Notes under the pieces: model-generated
Told to the model about the DNA's origin: nothing
What the model saw: the letters and a program-made list of their open reading frames with translations, nothing else
The model's database searches: none
Translations under genes and position numbers: made by a program
Source of the DNA: a virus
Virus record (IMG/VR): IMGVR_UViG_3300041809_000928
Location: 1 to 39,600 of that record
Strand: one strand, 5' to 3'
DNA: 39,600 bases
In this document: piece by piece, positions 14,973-24,720 of the stretch
How the letters are laid out: each line of letters opens with the position of its first letter
How positions within the stretch are numbered: position 1 is the first letter of the stretch

Positions 14973-16511
14973 TCAGGCTACGACGTTCTTGCCCACGCCA
15001 CGGAAGTCGATGATGGCGCCGTTGAAGACCATCTTCACCTTGTACTGCAGCTCATCCATCGTGAACTGCGTACCCACCGTCGGCTGGTTGGCGAGGAAGA
15101 TCTGCGGATTCTCGATGCCGTCGAGGAAGCCGATCTCCAAGAACGGAGCGTTTTCCTGCTTCGTCCCGTAGTACCAGTCGTTGGTGTCCGTCAGCTTTTC
15201 GTTGACGTAGATGCGCTCGTTGTTGGCACCGAAGCGCTGGAAGAAAGCGTTCGAGCCGGCGGTGTTGGTCTGGTTGATCTGGCGCGCGGTGGCGGCCAGG
15301 GCCGGAGGCACCATGATCCAGTCAAGCGGCAACCCCAGCGGCTCGCCCGAATCCTTCTCGGTCTGGGTGAGCAGCGCGATCTCGGCCGCGATCAGAGAGT
15401 CCTGCGAAAGAGCCGCAGAGCCCAGATTGGCGTGAGCCGCGTTGAACCAGGCCACCGTGTCCGCGCTGTAGTTGGGATTGTTGACGAAGAACCCTGTGAT
15501 GTAGTTCTTCAGGGTCCAGCGGCCGGCACGCGCCAGGCGTCCGGGGAAACGGGAGATCGCGCCGAGATCGTCATTGCGGATGGTCTCTTCCGAGATGGAG
15601 AGCATTCCGCCGCGCTTCTGCAGCGTGTAGAAGATGTGCTCGTCGGTGGGCCGCGTCACTTCGAGATAACTCGCGGTTCCGTTGCCCGTGTTGCCGGCAT
15701 CGCCGAGGCCGCCTTCACCCACGATCGGCAGCTCGTTGAAGTAGCCCTCGCGGACCCGGTCCTGTTGCTTGTAGTCGCTGATGGACTGTTTGGTGTACAG
15801 GTTCGACAATCCGTCGAGGGCCAGCTCTGCCCAGTCCTGCAGCAGCCGCTTGGTCATCGAGTTCAGCAGGATGTTCGGGAAGTCGCCGGTCAACACGGCT
15901 TCCGAAGCCAACATCCGCTGGCCGGAGAAACCTGCGCCGCCGGATAGACGCGCCAGATCGTAATCGCCGGTGATGGCGGTATAGGCCTCGCGCAGGCTGC
16001 GGAAAGCGGGAACTCCCTTGCCGACAGCCTCCTTGACGCCAATCGCCGCTTCCATGGCCAGCTCCATCTTGTCGGCGCTGTCGAGAACGCTCCATGCGCT
16101 TGGACGAACACTGCCCACGTTATTGAACGCGGCAAAGGCTGTGCGAACGCTGGCGATTTCCGTGTCGATCTTCGCCTGGGGAAGATCGGCCTCGGAGGTG
16201 AGCGCCATCTCCAGATGCGTGCGAGCCAGGGCCTGTGCCGGCACTGGCAGCTTGGAGGCCAGAAGGCTGGTCTCGATGCGGTTGCGGCTCTGGATGCGAT
16301 GCGCTTCGGCGAGCTGCGTTTGAGCGGCTTCGGCCGTCACTAGCGTGGGGCCAGGGGCCGCGGGCGTTTCAGTCAGGGCGTTCGTCACCTTGTCAAGAAA
16401 GGCGGGATAATCAGCCTCGGCGACGGTGTTGAATTGCAAGCTCAGCTCGGCGCAACGCGGGGCGTTCTTCTGCCGAAGCGCTTCGAGCAGTTGAAGGATG
16501 GACTTCTTCAT
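14973..16511 (-). CDS. predicted nested in-frame product: scaffold-capsid protein from internal start
   Basis: ATG 16511-16509 lies within the protease-capsid fusion frame and is preceded by GAAGGAG with 5 bases between, a better ribosome site than that of the full-length start. Translation from here would give a 512-residue protein with scaffold and capsid parts but no protease. This would supply many capsid subunits per protease, like the nested C/Nu3 arrangement of lambda, but here extended to the capsid itself. The residues before it (NRPNRGGAASATEGAS) look like an inter-domain linker, which supports a domain border. It is inferred from sequence only. Confidence 0.5.
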   Translation of the reverse strand: MKKSILQLLEALRQKNAPRCAELSLQFNTVAEADYPAFLDKVTNALTETPAAPGPTLVTAEAAQTQLAEAHRIQSRNRIETSLLASKLPVPAQALARTHLEMALTSEADLPQAKIDTEIASVRTAFAAFNNVGSVRPSAWSVLDSADKMELAMEAAIGVKEAVGKGVPAFRSLREAYTAITGDYDLARLSGGAGFSGQRMLASEAVLTGDFPNILLNSMTKRLLQDWAELALDGLSNLYTKQSISDYKQQDRVREGYFNELPIVGEGGLGDAGNTGNGTASYLEVTRPTDEHIFYTLQKRGGMLSISEETIRNDDLGAISRFPGRLARAGRWTLKNYITGFFVNNPNYSADTVAWFNAAHANLGSAALSQDSLIAAEIALLTQTEKDSGEPLGLPLDWIMVPPALAATARQINQTNTAGSNAFFQRFGANNERIYVNEKLTDTNDWYYGTKQENAPFLEIGFLDGIENPQIFLANQPTVGTQFTMDELQYKVKMVFNGAIIDFRGVGKNVVA

Positions 16512-17429
16512 GGATGCTCCTTCGGTAGCGCTGGCAGCGCCGCCGCGGTTGGGGCGATTTGGAGAAATCGCAGTGGTTGTCGCGTTGACGGCGCGCAGTT
16601 GCGCCGCAGAAACATCGTTAGCCGCAAAGGCCGCGGCGGTCAGGAACTCGCCGCCCGCGCCGGCCCTTGCGCAGAGATCGACGGAATAGAGCGTGCCGAG
16701 ATTCTCCGCCACCAGGCATTGCTTGCCTTCGATCACGCCGGGCTTATAGCCGACGCTGGCCAGCATCGAGATGCCGAAGAGATTGAGCTTGCCCGCCTTG
16801 CGTGCTTCGCCAAGGCGAGAGCGCAGATCGGATTCAGCAGAGAAGAGATTGACGAAGCCGACGGCGCGCGTGCCTTCGAGGGCGGCGCCATCGATCCAGC
16901 CCGCGATGCGCTCGGGCTGCGATGCGCCGGTAGGATCAGCGCTTCGCTGATCGGGATGCTTCCGGCCGAAGGGTTTGCCGCTTGCCGCCTCGGCAATCAA
17001 GCCGACAAATGTGGGCGGGTAGTAATGCGGCACGCTCTGGCCGCTCAGGGAACCTGTTCCCCAACCCGGCTTGAGAATCGTGATCTTGAATTTGCTTTCG
17101 TCGGGTGAAGCGCCGTCGGCTTCGGTGACTGTCTCGAACTCGCAAGCCTCGGCCACCGGCACATAAGCCGTGGTGACTTCCTGCGCATCGCCGAAAGTGA
17201 CCTGGTCGCCGTCGATGGTATAGGAAATGCGGAAGAGCTTTGCATCCGGACCGCGCGCGATCAGGTAATCCGCGAAAGTCTCAAAGAGATAAAACCGCTG
17301 GCAGCCCGACTCATCCAGGCCAAAGGACTCGCGCAGCTCGCCGTTGATGAGCTGCTGCTGCTCGTCAAGCGAAAGATCGGCTTCAGCCGTAAGCAGAAAC
17401 TGGGGGAGGGTCTTCATTTCAAGCCTCAT
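14973..17429 (-). CDS. prohead protease - scaffold - major capsid protein fusion
   Basis: One 818-residue frame joins functions that are usually separate genes. Residues about 140-260 look like a capsid maturation protease: GRKHPDQ (His158) and LFGISMLASV (Ser221) match the His and Ser positions of the U35/S78-type proteases. A Pro/Asn/Gly/Ala linker follows. From Met307 comes a helical, Glu/Ala-rich scaffold-like stretch (about 307-430) and then a major capsid-like part to residue 818, with typical segments such as SISEETIRNDDLGAISRFPG. Start choice is open: GTG 17441, ATG 17429 (chosen, after GGTGG) or ATG 17417 (after GAGG). A strong internal ribosome site precedes Met307. The fusion could be cut by its own protease during head maturation. 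Confidence 0.85.
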   Translation of the reverse strand: MRLEMKTLPQFLLTAEADLSLDEQQQLINGELRESFGLDESGCQRFYLFETFADYLIARGPDAKLFRISYTIDGDQVTFGDAQEVTTAYVPVAEACEFETVTEADGASPDESKFKITILKPGWGTGSLSGQSVPHYYPPTFVGLIAEAASGKPFGRKHPDQRSADPTGASQPERIAGWIDGAALEGTRAVGFVNLFSAESDLRSRLGEARKAGKLNLFGISMLASVGYKPGVIEGKQCLVAENLGTLYSVDLCARAGAGGEFLTAAAFAANDVSAAQLRAVNATTTAISPNRPNRGGAASATEGASMKKSILQLLEALRQKNAPRCAELSLQFNTVAEADYPAFLDKVTNALTETPAAPGPTLVTAEAAQTQLAEAHRIQSRNRIETSLLASKLPVPAQALARTHLEMALTSEADLPQAKIDTEIASVRTAFAAFNNVGSVRPSAWSVLDSADKMELAMEAAIGVKEAVGKGVPAFRSLREAYTAITGDYDLARLSGGAGFSGQRMLASEAVLTGDFPNILLNSMTKRLLQDWAELALDGLSNLYTKQSISDYKQQDRVREGYFNELPIVGEGGLGDAGNTGNGTASYLEVTRPTDEHIFYTLQKRGGMLSISEETIRNDDLGAISRFPGRLARAGRWTLKNYITGFFVNNPNYSADTVAWFNAAHANLGSAALSQDSLIAAEIALLTQTEKDSGEPLGLPLDWIMVPPALAATARQINQTNTAGSNAFFQRFGANNERIYVNEKLTDTNDWYYGTKQENAPFLEIGFLDGIENPQIFLANQPTVGTQFTMDELQYKVKMVFNGAIIDFRGVGKNVVA
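16517..16523 (-). promoter_or_regulatory. internal Shine-Dalgarno site GAAGGAG
   Basis: GAAGGAG on the minus strand with 5 bases to ATG 16511-16509, inside the long fusion gene. It decides that an internal start is likely. The three start choices of the full-length gene have weaker sites (GGTGG or GAGG). Confidence 0.6.
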
Positions 17430-17433
17430 TGTT

Positions 17434-17472
17434 GCTTCCACCGCCGCCGCTTCGTGATGCAGCGGTGGAAGC
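17434..17472 (-). repeat. inverted repeat covering the ribosome site of the fusion capsid gene
   Basis: GCTTCCACCGC at 17434-17444 pairs perfectly over 11 bp with GCGGTGGAAGC at 17462-17472 around a 17-nt loop. On the mRNA the downstream arm contains GGTGGAAGC, the ribosome site of the ATG at 17429. The hairpin could therefore hide the full-length start and push translation to the internal start at 16511. This regulatory reading is an inference. Confidence 0.65.
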
Positions 17473-17996: not shown

Positions 17997-18905
17997 TTAC
18001 GCTGCGTTGGTTACGACCGAGAGCCCGTAGCTTTTCAGCAGCTCGCGCTCACCGTCGGTTGGTTTCAGTTGATCCGCGCTGAACGCGGGGTATAAAAGGC
18101 AAGAGCAGTTGATGGTGTTCTCCGGCGATCCGCTGGGATCGCGCGGATATTGCAACTCTTCGCCGCCCACGAGAAACGGCTCGTCGGGCTGCTTGATTCC
18201 GTTGGCCGGCCCGGCCAGGATGTGGCTGATGCGCGGAACCATCGCCACAGGGATGTGCCGCCAGCCTTTTCCGAGGCCGGGATGATGCGGCGCCAGGTCA
18301 CGGATCCGCGCCATGGACACAACCGATTGCAGCCGCCGGATTTCGTTGGTGGCGATGCTCATGGCCCGCTCGCCCACCTGGCTGAAGAGTCCGGAGAATT
18401 TCCCGTCCTCCAGGATTCCGCCGATCTGCTCGACGAGCTGCTGGAGATTCATGCCGCCCATCGCCCCGCGCTGGATAGCCGCGTTGATTTTGGCGCTGGC
18501 GTCGTGTGTCAGCCCGCCAATCAGATCCGCCGTGTAACCCTGCACCACGCGAAGCATCGCCTGGTCGACCACCGGTTGCACCATCAGCGTCCCCGAGGCA
18601 GCCGCGACCGTCGCGTCGATCTGCACGGCCGTCTGCTCATAGGCTTTCTTTTCCAAGTCATCGATCTGACTTGCCGCCTGGCTGGCGAACTCGGCCATTA
18701 CGCGATCCACCTGGGCCTTCAGCGCCTGCAGCCGCGCGGAGCTGTAGCTCTCCGGCTTGCTGCGCGCCACATCGGCGAGGATCTCGCGGTTGGCGTCATC
18801 CAGCAGCTTCACGATGCGTATCCGCGCCTCGGGCGTCAGAGCCTCGGCCTGCCTGGTAAGCAGGTCGAGTTGCCCGGCGTATGCCTGTGCGCGTGAGTCA
18901 GCCAT
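17997..18905 (-). CDS. minor head protein, Mu F / SPP1 gp7-like
   Basis: The C-terminal 100 residues carry the signature of the Mu F-like head morphogenesis family: a basic stretch, LAGPANGIKQPDEPFLVGG, ELQYPRDPSGSPENTINCSC, that is, G-F-x-V-G-G-E-x-L-x-x-P-x-D-P followed by the C-x-C pair. The N-terminal two thirds are helical. In known phages these proteins follow the portal gene and associate with it inside the head. Here the start overlaps the portal stop (TAATG), which agrees. At 302 residues the length is normal for the shorter members. Confidence 0.88.
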   Translation of the reverse strand: MADSRAQAYAGQLDLLTRQAEALTPEARIRIVKLLDDANREILADVARSKPESYSSARLQALKAQVDRVMAEFASQAASQIDDLEKKAYEQTAVQIDATVAAASGTLMVQPVVDQAMLRVVQGYTADLIGGLTHDASAKINAAIQRGAMGGMNLQQLVEQIGGILEDGKFSGLFSQVGERAMSIATNEIRRLQSVVSMARIRDLAPHHPGLGKGWRHIPVAMVPRISHILAGPANGIKQPDEPFLVGGEELQYPRDPSGSPENTINCSCLLYPAFSADQLKPTDGERELLKSYGLSVVTNAA

Positions 18906-20653
18906 TACTTCGTCCCAATCTTGAGTTCATCCGCATCAAGCTGATCGTTGTCGGGGCCATTGCCCGCTTCATCCGCCGCGTTGGGCGTGGGCACGGGCGA
19001 CTTGCCCAGCTTGTTCAGGGCATCGGCGAGCTGCGATTGCGGAAAGAACTGATCCTGCTGCTTTTTGGCGCGATCCGCTTTTTCCTGCTGCGCGGCCGTG
19101 TACTCTTGCTGGCTGTCATCGATGTCCACGCCGATCTCGCCAAGCAGCGTGTGGAAAGCCCGAGCCGCGGTGATCCCCGTAACCCATCCTTCCTGCTGGC
19201 CGGTCAGCAGCGCCGTCGCCGCGCCCGAAAGCGTCTGCGCGCCCTTTTCGAGATCCTTGACAGCAACCTCCGGGAATTCGATCGTGAAGCTCAGATCCAC
19301 GACGGCCGGTAGCACGCCGGCGCGCTGCGCGCAATCGAGCACGAAGTTCAGCACGGCCTTGATGCAGCGGGACATCAGGTTTTGCCGCTTCTGGATCTTC
19401 TTGGTGAAGGGCGCATTCATCTCCAGAGCCGACGCGCGGTTGGCATCGTCGCCATCGCCCATCAGCACGGGAGGAATGCCCGCGCCGCCCAGGCCGTACT
19501 TCTTCACCATGCCGGCGCCCGCCGCCATGTCCTGGCCTTTGAAGTCCGGCGTCTGCGCCTGAATCGCCACCTGCTCGTTTGTCACGATCACGCCCCCCTG
19601 GCGCGGAGGATCCTTGGTGAGCTTGTTTTTGTACTCGTCCACCTTCTTGGGATCGGCGCCGGTCAGCGTGTAATGCCACACAAAGCTATTCAGAAAGCGG
19701 ACCTTGTCGCCGAAGTCGAAGATCATCTGGTCAAAGAGATCGATCCAGTCGGCCAGGGAGAATAGCTCGCTGAAGCCGCGGCTGGCGCTCTTGGCCTTGT
19801 TCAGCGCGAAGTAGAAGCACTCGCCATCGAGCCGTCCATAGTTCTCCTCGTTTGGATCCTCGACGCGGCGCACAATAAGCATCGGCTTCTGGAGAACCTC
19901 GCCCACCTCGCGCCGCAGCCGCACCGCAAAAGGCACGTTGATCGAGGCCGTACCGTCGGAGGTGGCCATCTCCGCAAACTGGATGGTGTCGATGTTCATG
20001 GGGTCGATGTAACCCACGCGCACCTTGCCGCTCACGGGATTCACCGCAACGGGCACGCATAGCTCGCCGAAAGTGGTCTGCTCGTCACACCAGCTCTCGA
20101 TGTTGGCGTCCATGTCGTTGACTTCGTCGTTCCAAAAATCGTCGATCACCTGCTGCACGCGCGGATCCGTGGCTGTCACCCGCACGCCTTTGCCCAGCGT
20201 GTAGTCAGTGAGGATCTCCACGATCCGCTTGCCGAAGGGCGTGGTCACGGCAAGGAAATAGCAGACCTGCAGCATCCGGTCATGCATGAGCGGATTCAGG
20301 TCGCGTAGCGTAGCTAGGCTGGTGATGCGCCGGAAACCGGGATCCTCGCCGTCTCCGGTGGTCAGCGTGAAGAGCTGGGGCGCCACGGCCTCGGCGGCGA
20401 GTTTGTCCTCGGCCGAGAGCTTTCCCGCGGCGAACATCTTCCGCGCGGCCGTGAGCAGCGTAACATCCTTGTCGCTCAGCTTCGCGAAGTTCGGCATTCC
20501 GGCTATCAGCTTGCGGGTCTCGACGATCTCGGCCTCGGCGGCCGCCGCGTCCCAGCGCTTGGCGTCGCTCAGGCTGAGCATCGTCATGCCGTTGCGCTCC
20601 TGGATGCCGCGCCGGCTAAAGAGGTTTTTCACTGCCTTCGGTATCAAGCCCAT
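18905..20653 (-). CDS. portal protein
   Basis: The gene lies between terminase large subunit and F-like head protein, the fixed place of the portal. The 582-residue length fits. The central part shows portal-like features: TPFGKRIVEILTDYTLGKGV at about 137-156, an acidic stem-like part, then GIPPVLMGDGDDANRASALE at about 396-415 before a long helix. The last 80 residues are Gln/Asp-rich and likely disordered. It would form the ring at the head vertex through which DNA passes. Its start overlaps the terminase stop by 10 bases; the ribosome site is GGAG. Confidence 0.88.
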   Translation of the reverse strand: MGLIPKAVKNLFSRRGIQERNGMTMLSLSDAKRWDAAAAEAEIVETRKLIAGMPNFAKLSDKDVTLLTAARKMFAAGKLSAEDKLAAEAVAPQLFTLTTGDGEDPGFRRITSLATLRDLNPLMHDRMLQVCYFLAVTTPFGKRIVEILTDYTLGKGVRVTATDPRVQQVIDDFWNDEVNDMDANIESWCDEQTTFGELCVPVAVNPVSGKVRVGYIDPMNIDTIQFAEMATSDGTASINVPFAVRLRREVGEVLQKPMLIVRRVEDPNEENYGRLDGECFYFALNKAKSASRGFSELFSLADWIDLFDQMIFDFGDKVRFLNSFVWHYTLTGADPKKVDEYKNKLTKDPPRQGGVIVTNEQVAIQAQTPDFKGQDMAAGAGMVKKYGLGGAGIPPVLMGDGDDANRASALEMNAPFTKKIQKRQNLMSRCIKAVLNFVLDCAQRAGVLPAVVDLSFTIEFPEVAVKDLEKGAQTLSGAATALLTGQQEGWVTGITAARAFHTLLGEIGVDIDDSQQEYTAAQQEKADRAKKQQDQFFPQSQLADALNKLGKSPVPTPNAADEAGNGPDNDQLDADELKIGTK

Positions 20654-22263
20654 CTCGATCTCCTGTCACGGCGCACAAAGTCATCGCCTCCACGGCTCTC
20701 GCCGGTCAATACCTCACCGCGCCCAAAGCTCTGCTCGCGGCCGCCTATCTGTACGCCGCTCGATGCAATCGCCGCCTGAAAGTTGATGGTGCGTGCGAGC
20801 TGCACCGCACCCTGCAGCGCGTCAGCCTGGTCATCCTTGATCTTGCCCAGAAAGAGGAGCTGCTGGATCAGAGTCTTCTGCGTTCCGTCCAGGCAGAACC
20901 GGATGGTGCCGTTCTCTACTAGCGATGAAATGCTGGAGATGCGCAAAAACTTGTCCGTGAGATTGGGCACGCCGACGATGTTGATATAGCGGCCCGTTAC
21001 GCGGCTCTGCTCATCCATCTCCTGTTTCAGCGCATCCTGGTAGGCCTGATTCTCGATACCAACTACGACGGGCAGTTCCTCGTCATAGCGGTTGAGGATG
21101 AACTCTTTCTGCTTGATGTACGGCAGCTTCACACCTTCAGACCGCTCGACATACAGGAAGCCTTTATCGTCGATGGCCAAAGTAACGCTGGCGAAGAAGT
21201 CTGCCCGCTTTTTCAGGCTGATTGCCGGATCGTAGTAAGTCACCCTAGTGAAGGCTTTTTGTTGCAGCTCCTCTCGCCGGTAGGCGTGACGGATGATCCA
21301 CTCTTCCTGAAAAACCTGTGTGTCCGCGCTGATGGGTCTGTTCCGGAACTCCTGATTAAAGAAGATGGAGCCGACGTCCTCTGACTTCAGCTTCAGAGAT
21401 TCGAGGTCCCATTTCGCCGCCCAGAGCACAGACTCCGGCGTCCACTCGTCATCAACGGCCTCATAGCGGCGTTTAATGAATCGCTTGAACTTCTCGGGAT
21501 CGAGGAGGTTCGAGAGGAACGAATCGAAGTGGAGAATGGTTCCCACCGCGAAGATCTGGGCGCTTTTGCCCAGGCTCATCACGGTCCCCTTGAACCACTT
21601 CATCAGCTTGTCGCGCGTCTCCGGGTTATCGACCGACTCTTCGTTTTCCAGATCGTCGATGATGACCAGGTCAGGGCGGTATTGCCGATAGCGCAGACCG
21701 CGCATACTCTGCCCTGCGCCGCGCGCAACGATAGTGATGCCGGTCGAGGTCCGGCAGTCGTTGACATCCCACTTTTTGTCGCCGACCAGGTCGCCGAAGT
21801 CTTCGCGCAGCTTTGCGTTTGTTTCCAGTTCTTCTTTGACGGCCGCGAGCTGCAGCGCTGCGTTCGGTTGTGTGTCGCCGATCAACACGATGAAGCGGCG
21901 GAGCTTATAGCAAATGCAATAAAGCGGGAAGATAACGGAAACGACGGTAGACTTGGCGTGTTCGCGGGGAGCTGCGATTGCGGCGAACCGTTCGGTCAGC
22001 AGAATTGTATAGAGTTCGCGGTGAAACTCCGCCGGCTCGATGAAGCGACCCGTTTCCGGATCCTCCATGAAGTGATGCAGATATTTGACCGCGAATTCCG
22101 TGATCTGATCCGCTAGCTCCCAAGCCTTTGAGAGCACGGCGATGGCGTCCGACTTTACGCCTGGAGCTGCCGAGGGAACCTTCTGGAAGACAGCCCGAAG
22201 GCTGTTTCCAGCTTCCTCACGCCGCTGACGCTTCGATATGTTTTGCGAAGGCCTCAGCGGCAT
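20644..22263 (-). CDS. terL: terminase large subunit
   Basis: The ATPase part has a Walker A-like segment AAPREHAKST with Lys104 and a Walker B LVIIDDLENEE with Asp203-Asp204. The C-terminal nuclease part begins with TRVTYYDPAISLKKRADFFA, whose Asp fits the first acidic residue of the RNase H-like fold of Terminase_6 family members. At 539 residues the length is normal. The protein cuts and pumps phage DNA into the head, here by the headful route if it works like Mu gp28. Start ATG 22263 follows CAGGAGC and overlaps the small subunit gene by 47 bases. Confidence 0.95.
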   Translation of the reverse strand: MPLRPSQNISKRQRREEAGNSLRAVFQKVPSAAPGVKSDAIAVLSKAWELADQITEFAVKYLHHFMEDPETGRFIEPAEFHRELYTILLTERFAAIAAPREHAKSTVVSVIFPLYCICYKLRRFIVLIGDTQPNAALQLAAVKEELETNAKLREDFGDLVGDKKWDVNDCRTSTGITIVARGAGQSMRGLRYRQYRPDLVIIDDLENEESVDNPETRDKLMKWFKGTVMSLGKSAQIFAVGTILHFDSFLSNLLDPEKFKRFIKRRYEAVDDEWTPESVLWAAKWDLESLKLKSEDVGSIFFNQEFRNRPISADTQVFQEEWIIRHAYRREELQQKAFTRVTYYDPAISLKKRADFFASVTLAIDDKGFLYVERSEGVKLPYIKQKEFILNRYDEELPVVVGIENQAYQDALKQEMDEQSRVTGRYINIVGVPNLTDKFLRISSISSLVENGTIRFCLDGTQKTLIQQLLFLGKIKDDQADALQGAVQLARTINFQAAIASSGVQIGGREQSFGRGEVLTGESRGGDDFVRRDRRSRWA

Positions 22264-24126: not shown

Positions 24127-24720
24127 TCAGGTGCCGGCAACCGCCTGGGCGACGGTCAGATTGTCCGGCCTGTCCCACATCGCCGCGAACTTGGTTACGA
24201 ATGCTTTAGCGATCCCCGGATCGACCGAAAAGGTCGCTGAATTGTCCTGCCGGCTTTCACCCTGTTCGCTGAAATTGGCGGAGCCGTCTCGCACCAGGCC
24301 CGAATCGACGCAATAGCTTTTCAGGTGCATCAGAACTTTGGAGTGCTTGACGCGGATCTGAACGTTAGCCAGACCGATCAGCTCATGCAGCGGAATCCGA
24401 GCGCAGCTCGCGTCGCCGCGGCACTCGGCCTGCAGCTCGCCCCGGTCCAGGTATATCCGGATCGCCACGCCATGTTGCGCCCGATCCGCAAGCACTTTCA
24501 CAATCGCTTCGTCGGTCAAGCTGAAAGCTGCCAGGCCGATAGTCTCGCGCGCCGAACCGAGCGCGGCCGCGTCCTGCGCTTCCAGATTCATCTCCGGCGA
24601 GTAGTAGGTGCCCGAGGGCAGCGGCTGCTGCGCATAGGCATAGTCGTTGCAGCCCGCCAACCAGACGGTTATGGCGAACCCCACCGCCAGAAAAACCCAA
24701 CCACGTATTTGATTCCTCAT
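24127..24720 (-). CDS. phospholipase D-like nuclease, predicted lipoprotein
   Basis: The 197-residue protein has one HKD motif in the exact spacing H132-x-K134-x4-D139-x6-G146-S147-x-N149, the mark of the PLD superfamily. A single HKD copy and small size fit the Nuc/bacterial endonuclease branch that works as a dimer. Residues 1-24 form a lipoprotein signal: hydrophobic helix and lipobox LAGC with Cys24. The protein would thus be lipid-anchored outside the inner membrane. It is carried in the late phage strand between lysis-block genes and packaging genes. Possible roles are degrading DNA of incoming phages in the periplasm or clearing host DNA at lysis; both are inferred. Plasmid Nuc-type nucleases are the nearest known parallel. 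Confidence 0.88.
   Translation of the reverse strand: MRNQIRGWVFLAVGFAITVWLAGCNDYAYAQQPLPSGTYYSPEMNLEAQDAAALGSARETIGLAAFSLTDEAIVKVLADRAQHGVAIRIYLDRGELQAECRGDASCARIPLHELIGLANVQIRVKHSKVLMHLKSYCVDSGLVRDGSANFSEQGESRQDNSATFSVDPGIAKAFVTKFAAMWDRPDNLTVAQAVAGT

Follow-up and report, generated by a model that had tools for sequence, protein, structure and literature searches.

How the right, small number of protease molecules gets into a shell made of hundreds of subunits is a standing question. The protease C of phage lambda is thought to enter the shell by co-assembly, through sharing Nu3, and the I/Z nested protease gene of phage Mu is comparable to lambda C/Nu3. As the lambda record has it, a long protease chain is accompanied in lambda by a nested, in-frame shorter chain that shares its C-terminus. 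In HK97 the start codon of gp5 comes 2 bases past the stop codon of gp4, so that the region upstream of gp5 lies within the protease gene. Yet another arrangement, a single gene encoding protease, scaffold and capsid, is argued for in the section that a 2021 paper on phage MD8 devotes to this gene (PMC8508860). The protease-capsid fusion is thus already known, from this paper, from the NCBIfam entry 'prohead protease/major capsid protein fusion protein' and from PHROGs. An internal start goes unmentioned in that section of the MD8 paper, and the word 'internal' is absent from its main text (PMC8508860). Within the open-access literature we found the fusion itself (PMC8508860) and no description of a nested capsid start, which for protease-capsid fusion genes is apparently undescribed there.

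The fusion gene considered here belongs to a 39.6-kb virus record of IMG/VR, the whole of which (39,600 nucleotides) we call the window. It lies on the minus strand, downstream of genes for terminase (20644-22263), portal (18905-20653) and head-morphogenesis (17997-18905) proteins. Upstream of the head genes, and on the same strand, 24127-24720 codes for a protein with a PLD-like domain (PF13091, E 3.9e-16). The open frame reaches GTG 17441 (14973-17441), with another ATG at 17429. A sequence-only reading of this DNA, which named no strand, had seen protease, scaffold and capsid protein joined in one gene, and this is borne out by the frame, by structure models and by a match to PF25209. Protease and HK97-fold capsid protein share one open frame, as in the prohead protease/major capsid protein fusion family, and the PHROGs annotation 'major head and protease protein' fits the product. 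The window protein scores 158 and 130 bits with NF045540 and NF045541, against curated cut-offs of 525 and 475, and is by those models a divergent relative outside their membership. The whole gene and the parts of its first domain are as follows:

14973..17417, minus strand: fusion gene for protease, scaffold and major capsid protein; 814 codons, counted from ATG 17417, the conserved start
16662..17171, minus strand: predicted assemblin-fold protease core, model residues 83-252
16956-16958, minus strand: catalytic His codon, a conserved position in the protease
16767-16769, minus strand: catalytic Ser codon, a conserved position in the protease

Sequence searches with the protease part gave nothing useful in Pfam and no match in the PDB, so that its assignment comes from a fold search. 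The region N-terminal of the internal ATG yields a structure model with a mean pLDDT of 82.5, to which T4 gp21 is the closest solved structure (Foldseek E 6.7e-4; VIA Z 10.6, rmsd 3.6 over 150 residues), the next-best matches being herpesvirus assemblins (Z 4-5.6). What had been taken for a protease on the letters alone thus models as a capsid-assembly protease, with a predicted gp21-like assemblin fold. The proposed catalytic residues His158 and Ser221, counted from ATG 17429, are H162/S225 of P0001 and H154/S217 when counted from ATG 17417; across 53 homologues the serine is invariant and the histidine at least 90% conserved, in keeping with that proposal. The predicted assemblin fold and the conserved Ser and His are those of an assemblin-type capsid protease.

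The rest of the protein was modelled as residues 311-822; in the model some 145 residues form helices, after which comes a capsid protein of the HK97 fold:

14973..16511, minus strand: nested frame of 512 aa for scaffold and major capsid protein, corresponding to HK97 gp5
16080..16511, minus strand: helical, delta-like scaffold region, model residues 1-144, from the secondary structure of the model
14976..16067, minus strand: HK97-fold major capsid protein (Pfam PF25209 Phage_capsid_4, E 3.6e-30)

The capsid model matches HK97 with a Z of 12.1, from about model residue 149-158 on. Stand-alone capsid homologues begin to align at about residue 453, in agreement with a scaffold/capsid border at that point. 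Three such capsid-only homologues (L100:3399-4568, L101:3366-4559 and L022:3953-5107), from two Acidobacteria assemblies and one viral contig, are about 50% identical to residues 453-822. They lie directly behind a phage-type repressor, in a common order of HTH-like genes, repressor and capsid, and in L022 a tape-measure-like gene is found downstream. L022/L023 and L100/L101 were considered as split fusions and rejected: what stands beside the repressor is a gene for the capsid alone, which holds no protease.

Two candidate starts, each with its ribosome-binding site, and one hairpin bear on the way the gene would be read:

16517..16523, minus strand: GAAGGAG, the internal ribosome-binding site, within the linker between protease and scaffold; it includes the Gly308 codon GGA
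16509..16511, minus strand: internal start codon ATG, Met311 of P0001
17424..17427, minus strand: GAGG ribosome-binding site of the full-length start, for ATG 17417
17434..17472, minus strand: hairpin upstream of the full-length start, a 16-pair stem

GAAGGAG does stand 5 bases ahead of the in-frame ATG 16511 at the protease-scaffold border, as first claimed. The predicted pairing with the anti-SD sequence is −8.0 kcal/mol at 16511, compared with −6.3 at 17429 and −5.6 at 17417, so that the full-length start has, as had been claimed, the weaker site. Taken in this gene alone, the occurrence of the motif is not significant, because, when its codons are shuffled, 59 of 300 versions contain an in-frame internal ATG with a site that is as good or better. 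The significance of the internal site comes from its conservation, not from the window gene by itself.

To follow this conservation a sample of relatives was drawn from viral contigs and genomes, 70 distinct sequences of which 64 cover the protease-scaffold border; they are not independent samples, and all counts of conservation are to be read in this light. All 64 alignable relatives retain both elements: an ATG at or next to the window position, and a pairing of −5 kcal/mol or lower at that ATG (64/64, mean −8.2). Among 884 other in-frame ATGs, used for comparison, 14% reach −5 kcal/mol and the mean is −2.2. The internal site is also present in 26 out of 26 representatives at 70% identity, the most distant of which share about 22-33% identity with the window protein. 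The gene therefore shows, conserved and in frame, the internal ribosome site with start codon that marks nested genes of the C/Nu3 type. The Gly308 codon is GGA in 49/49 relatives that retain the glycine, while the share of GGA among all glycine codons of these genes is 15%, and none of 42 other conserved glycine columns goes above 34%. A codon so fixed against such a background argues for selection on the bases, not on the protein alone. Although relatives differ in both the length and the sequence of the linker, the site holds its distance from the start codon, and it is coded in several phases: A GGA GC in most relatives, AGG AGC in L019 and L087, and GAG GAG in L063. In L019 and L087, AGGAG is preserved despite altered residues and an altered phase. 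With a synonymous-codon test giving a p of 1e-4, the case is strong that, in the aligned genes of the window family, conservation of the internal AGGAG-ATG exceeds what amino acid constraint would impose. In 49 of 61 relatives the internal site surpasses the best N-terminal one, and in 10 it falls short of it (Wilcoxon p 5e-7, a value uncorrected for kinship). The strength of the internal site does not track that of the neighbouring SD sequences in this family (rho −0.31).

As to the full-length start, relatives conserve ATG 17417, with GAGG 6 bases upstream, rather than ATG 17429, which makes 17417 the more likely of the two. This changes the reading of the hairpin. The weak full-length site had been placed inside an 11-bp hairpin; a hairpin is indeed there, with the weak site of ATG 17429 inside it, but its stem is of about 14-16 bp (MFE −41.3, z −4.1), it ends about 17 bases ahead of ATG 17417, and it leaves the GAGG of this conserved start free. 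The idea that it masks the full-length ribosome site was dropped for this reason: with 17417 as the more likely start, the stem probably does not hide the main site. Compensatory changes preserve the stem across nine relatives, so that within this subclade the hairpin is probably a genuine RNA element: 11 of the 16 pairs show changes on both sides, the covariation score is reached by none of 500 shuffles, and sliding the partner by one column lowers pairing from 83% to 44-51%. The hairpin is also seen upstream of the fusion gene in L003, L004, L005, L006, L007, L008, L009 and L030, at a fixed distance and with little of the stem sequence conserved; the stem is absent in many of the other relatives examined. 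Possible roles are in mRNA processing, in stability or in hindering the loading of ribosomes at its edge. Separately, an extra N-terminal module of about 80 aa (KTKSVGGKEYPASDFAYVGDPEDISTW...), absent from the window gene, is present in L003, L005, L006, L010, L014 and L018; a Pfam search with it gave no match.

The same internal start, at the protease-scaffold border, is found in four other divergent fusion lineages, whose proteases are of two unrelated types, ClpP and S78-like. The internal methionine is M221 in Gifsy-2, M220 in F10 and M211 in mEp043 (ClpP confirmed by PF00574), and M225 in a Nostoc phage, where the protease is again ClpP; it is M176 in yong2, M214 in Pmp14, M207 in S1 and M274 in a Microcystis phage, and M223 in MinM1 and M190 in PBb001, where the first half gives weak S78 matches. 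By lineage, the internal site is present in 51/51 ClpP (Gifsy)-type loci, in about 46/56 of the S1 type, in 7/7 of the Nostoc type, some of them weak, and in 7/9 of the Microcystis type. Averaged profiles of SD affinity show a sharp minimum at start-codon spacing in all five lineages. The synonymous-codon test is not significant in the four lineages outside the window family, since their Glu/Gly/Lys-rich linkers already permit the motif and leave the test with little power. Most exceptions fall in loci where other genes, too, have weak sites: S1-type loci that are devoid of the internal site have weaker SD sequences at their other genes (mean −2.3 vs −4.9, p 0.001). Eight S1-type phages of this kind (L219, L222, L223, L225, L226, L229, L254 and L267) have weak or no SD sequences at neighbouring genes. 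This suggests hosts in which initiation is not SD-led, in which case the missing site is what one would expect. As far as comparison of genes goes, the evidence is strong in the window family; in the other lineages it is good, though less direct.

Other explanations have to be weighed against a nested start. The one that survives best would have the full-length chain made alone, the protease then cutting itself off, with protease and capsid protein in equimolar amounts. Free capsid protein could indeed arise by proteolytic separation alone, the frame is single and uninterrupted, databases annotate it as one protein, and the full-length start has a recognizable GAGG site. Yet this would place one protease per capsid subunit within the shell, and it leaves unexplained an invariant ATG, together with a rare GGA that is fixed at start spacing, in several phases and lineages; we consider it improbable. 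Codons resembling SD sequences are sometimes held to slow ribosomes, a disputed view, and the element might, instead of serving a start, cause translation to pause, giving the protease time to fold ahead of the synthesis of the scaffold and capsid parts. Its place at a domain border would suit this role, as would the slowing that some attribute to such codons. A pause, however, requires no ATG, whereas a start codon is retained a few bases downstream in every relative of the window family, and the element is lacking chiefly where the SD sites of other genes are weak, so that a pause seems very unlikely. Least probable of all, by a little, is a constraint on the protein only, from a Gly/Glu-rich linker and a conserved methionine at the start of a helix: the site does encode a conserved Glu-Glu in the ClpP-type lineage, and the synonymous test is without significance outside the window family, but such a constraint does not account for the single glycine codon that is always GGA, when other conserved glycine columns stay at or below 34%, nor for AGGAG in L019 and L087, retained in spite of changed residues and phase.

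We therefore hold it highly probable that one gene gives two in-frame products, a short scaffold-capsid chain that is the main subunit of the shell and a long chain that carries the protease. This explanation starts from what is observed, namely the domain structure, the conserved catalytic pair and the nucleotide-level conservation of the internal site; we infer initiation at the internal ATG, a ratio in which the short chain dominates, co-assembly and cleavage. Both chains would be translated from one mRNA. ATG 17417, with its moderate site GAGG, would give the full protease-scaffold-capsid chain, and the internal ATG 16511, with its stronger site GAAGGAG, a scaffold-capsid chain equivalent to HK97 gp5. 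The short chain would make up most of the shell, which the long chain would join through its capsid or scaffold part, bringing the protease into the procapsid; after assembly, the protease would cut away the scaffold parts.

We also lean, with less assurance, towards seeing the nested capsid start as a general rule of protease-capsid fusion genes, in which unrelated proteases (ClpP, assemblin-like) are joined to the same capsid family, with a separate start for the capsid, so that one gene provides the plain shell subunit as well as a version of it tagged with the protease, by which the protease is delivered. If true, such genes would solve the dosage of protease through gene layout alone, and many capsid proteins annotated in databases as long fusions would owe most of their synthesis to an internal start that the annotation lacks.

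How, then, does this layout compare with those already described? As in lambda, the nested start lies inside the protease gene. There, however, the nested product is the scaffold only, the capsid protein being encoded by a separate gene, E, whereas the nested product of the window gene includes the capsid protein and is not a scaffold alone. With no stop between the scaffold and capsid parts, the window gene is a variant of the C/Nu3 kind and not a member of it, and its long chain would co-assemble as lambda C does, but via the capsid protein itself. HK97 has the same succession of adjacent parts, a protease and then a delta scaffold fused to the capsid protein. A stop codon splits them into two genes; in its absence, a protease-capsid chain also becomes possible in the window gene. 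Because the gp5 start adjoins the protease stop, the window layout would arise in one step if an HK97-like arrangement lost the stop but kept the start. Nearest in organization are the MD8-like phages, F10, Gifsy-2 and mEp043 (NF045540/NF045541, phrog_133, phrog_4523), where a single gene likewise encodes protease, scaffold and capsid. The sequence-only reading had seen in the nesting of the capsid itself a different design; the predicted nesting is widespread, recurring in other lineages, and is hence not peculiar to this phage, while the fusion as such is no novelty. In F10, Gifsy-2 and mEp043 the internal start stands at the same position as in the window gene, but the protease of the MD8/F10/Gifsy-2/mEp043 group is of the ClpP type, where that of the window family has a predicted gp21-like assemblin fold.
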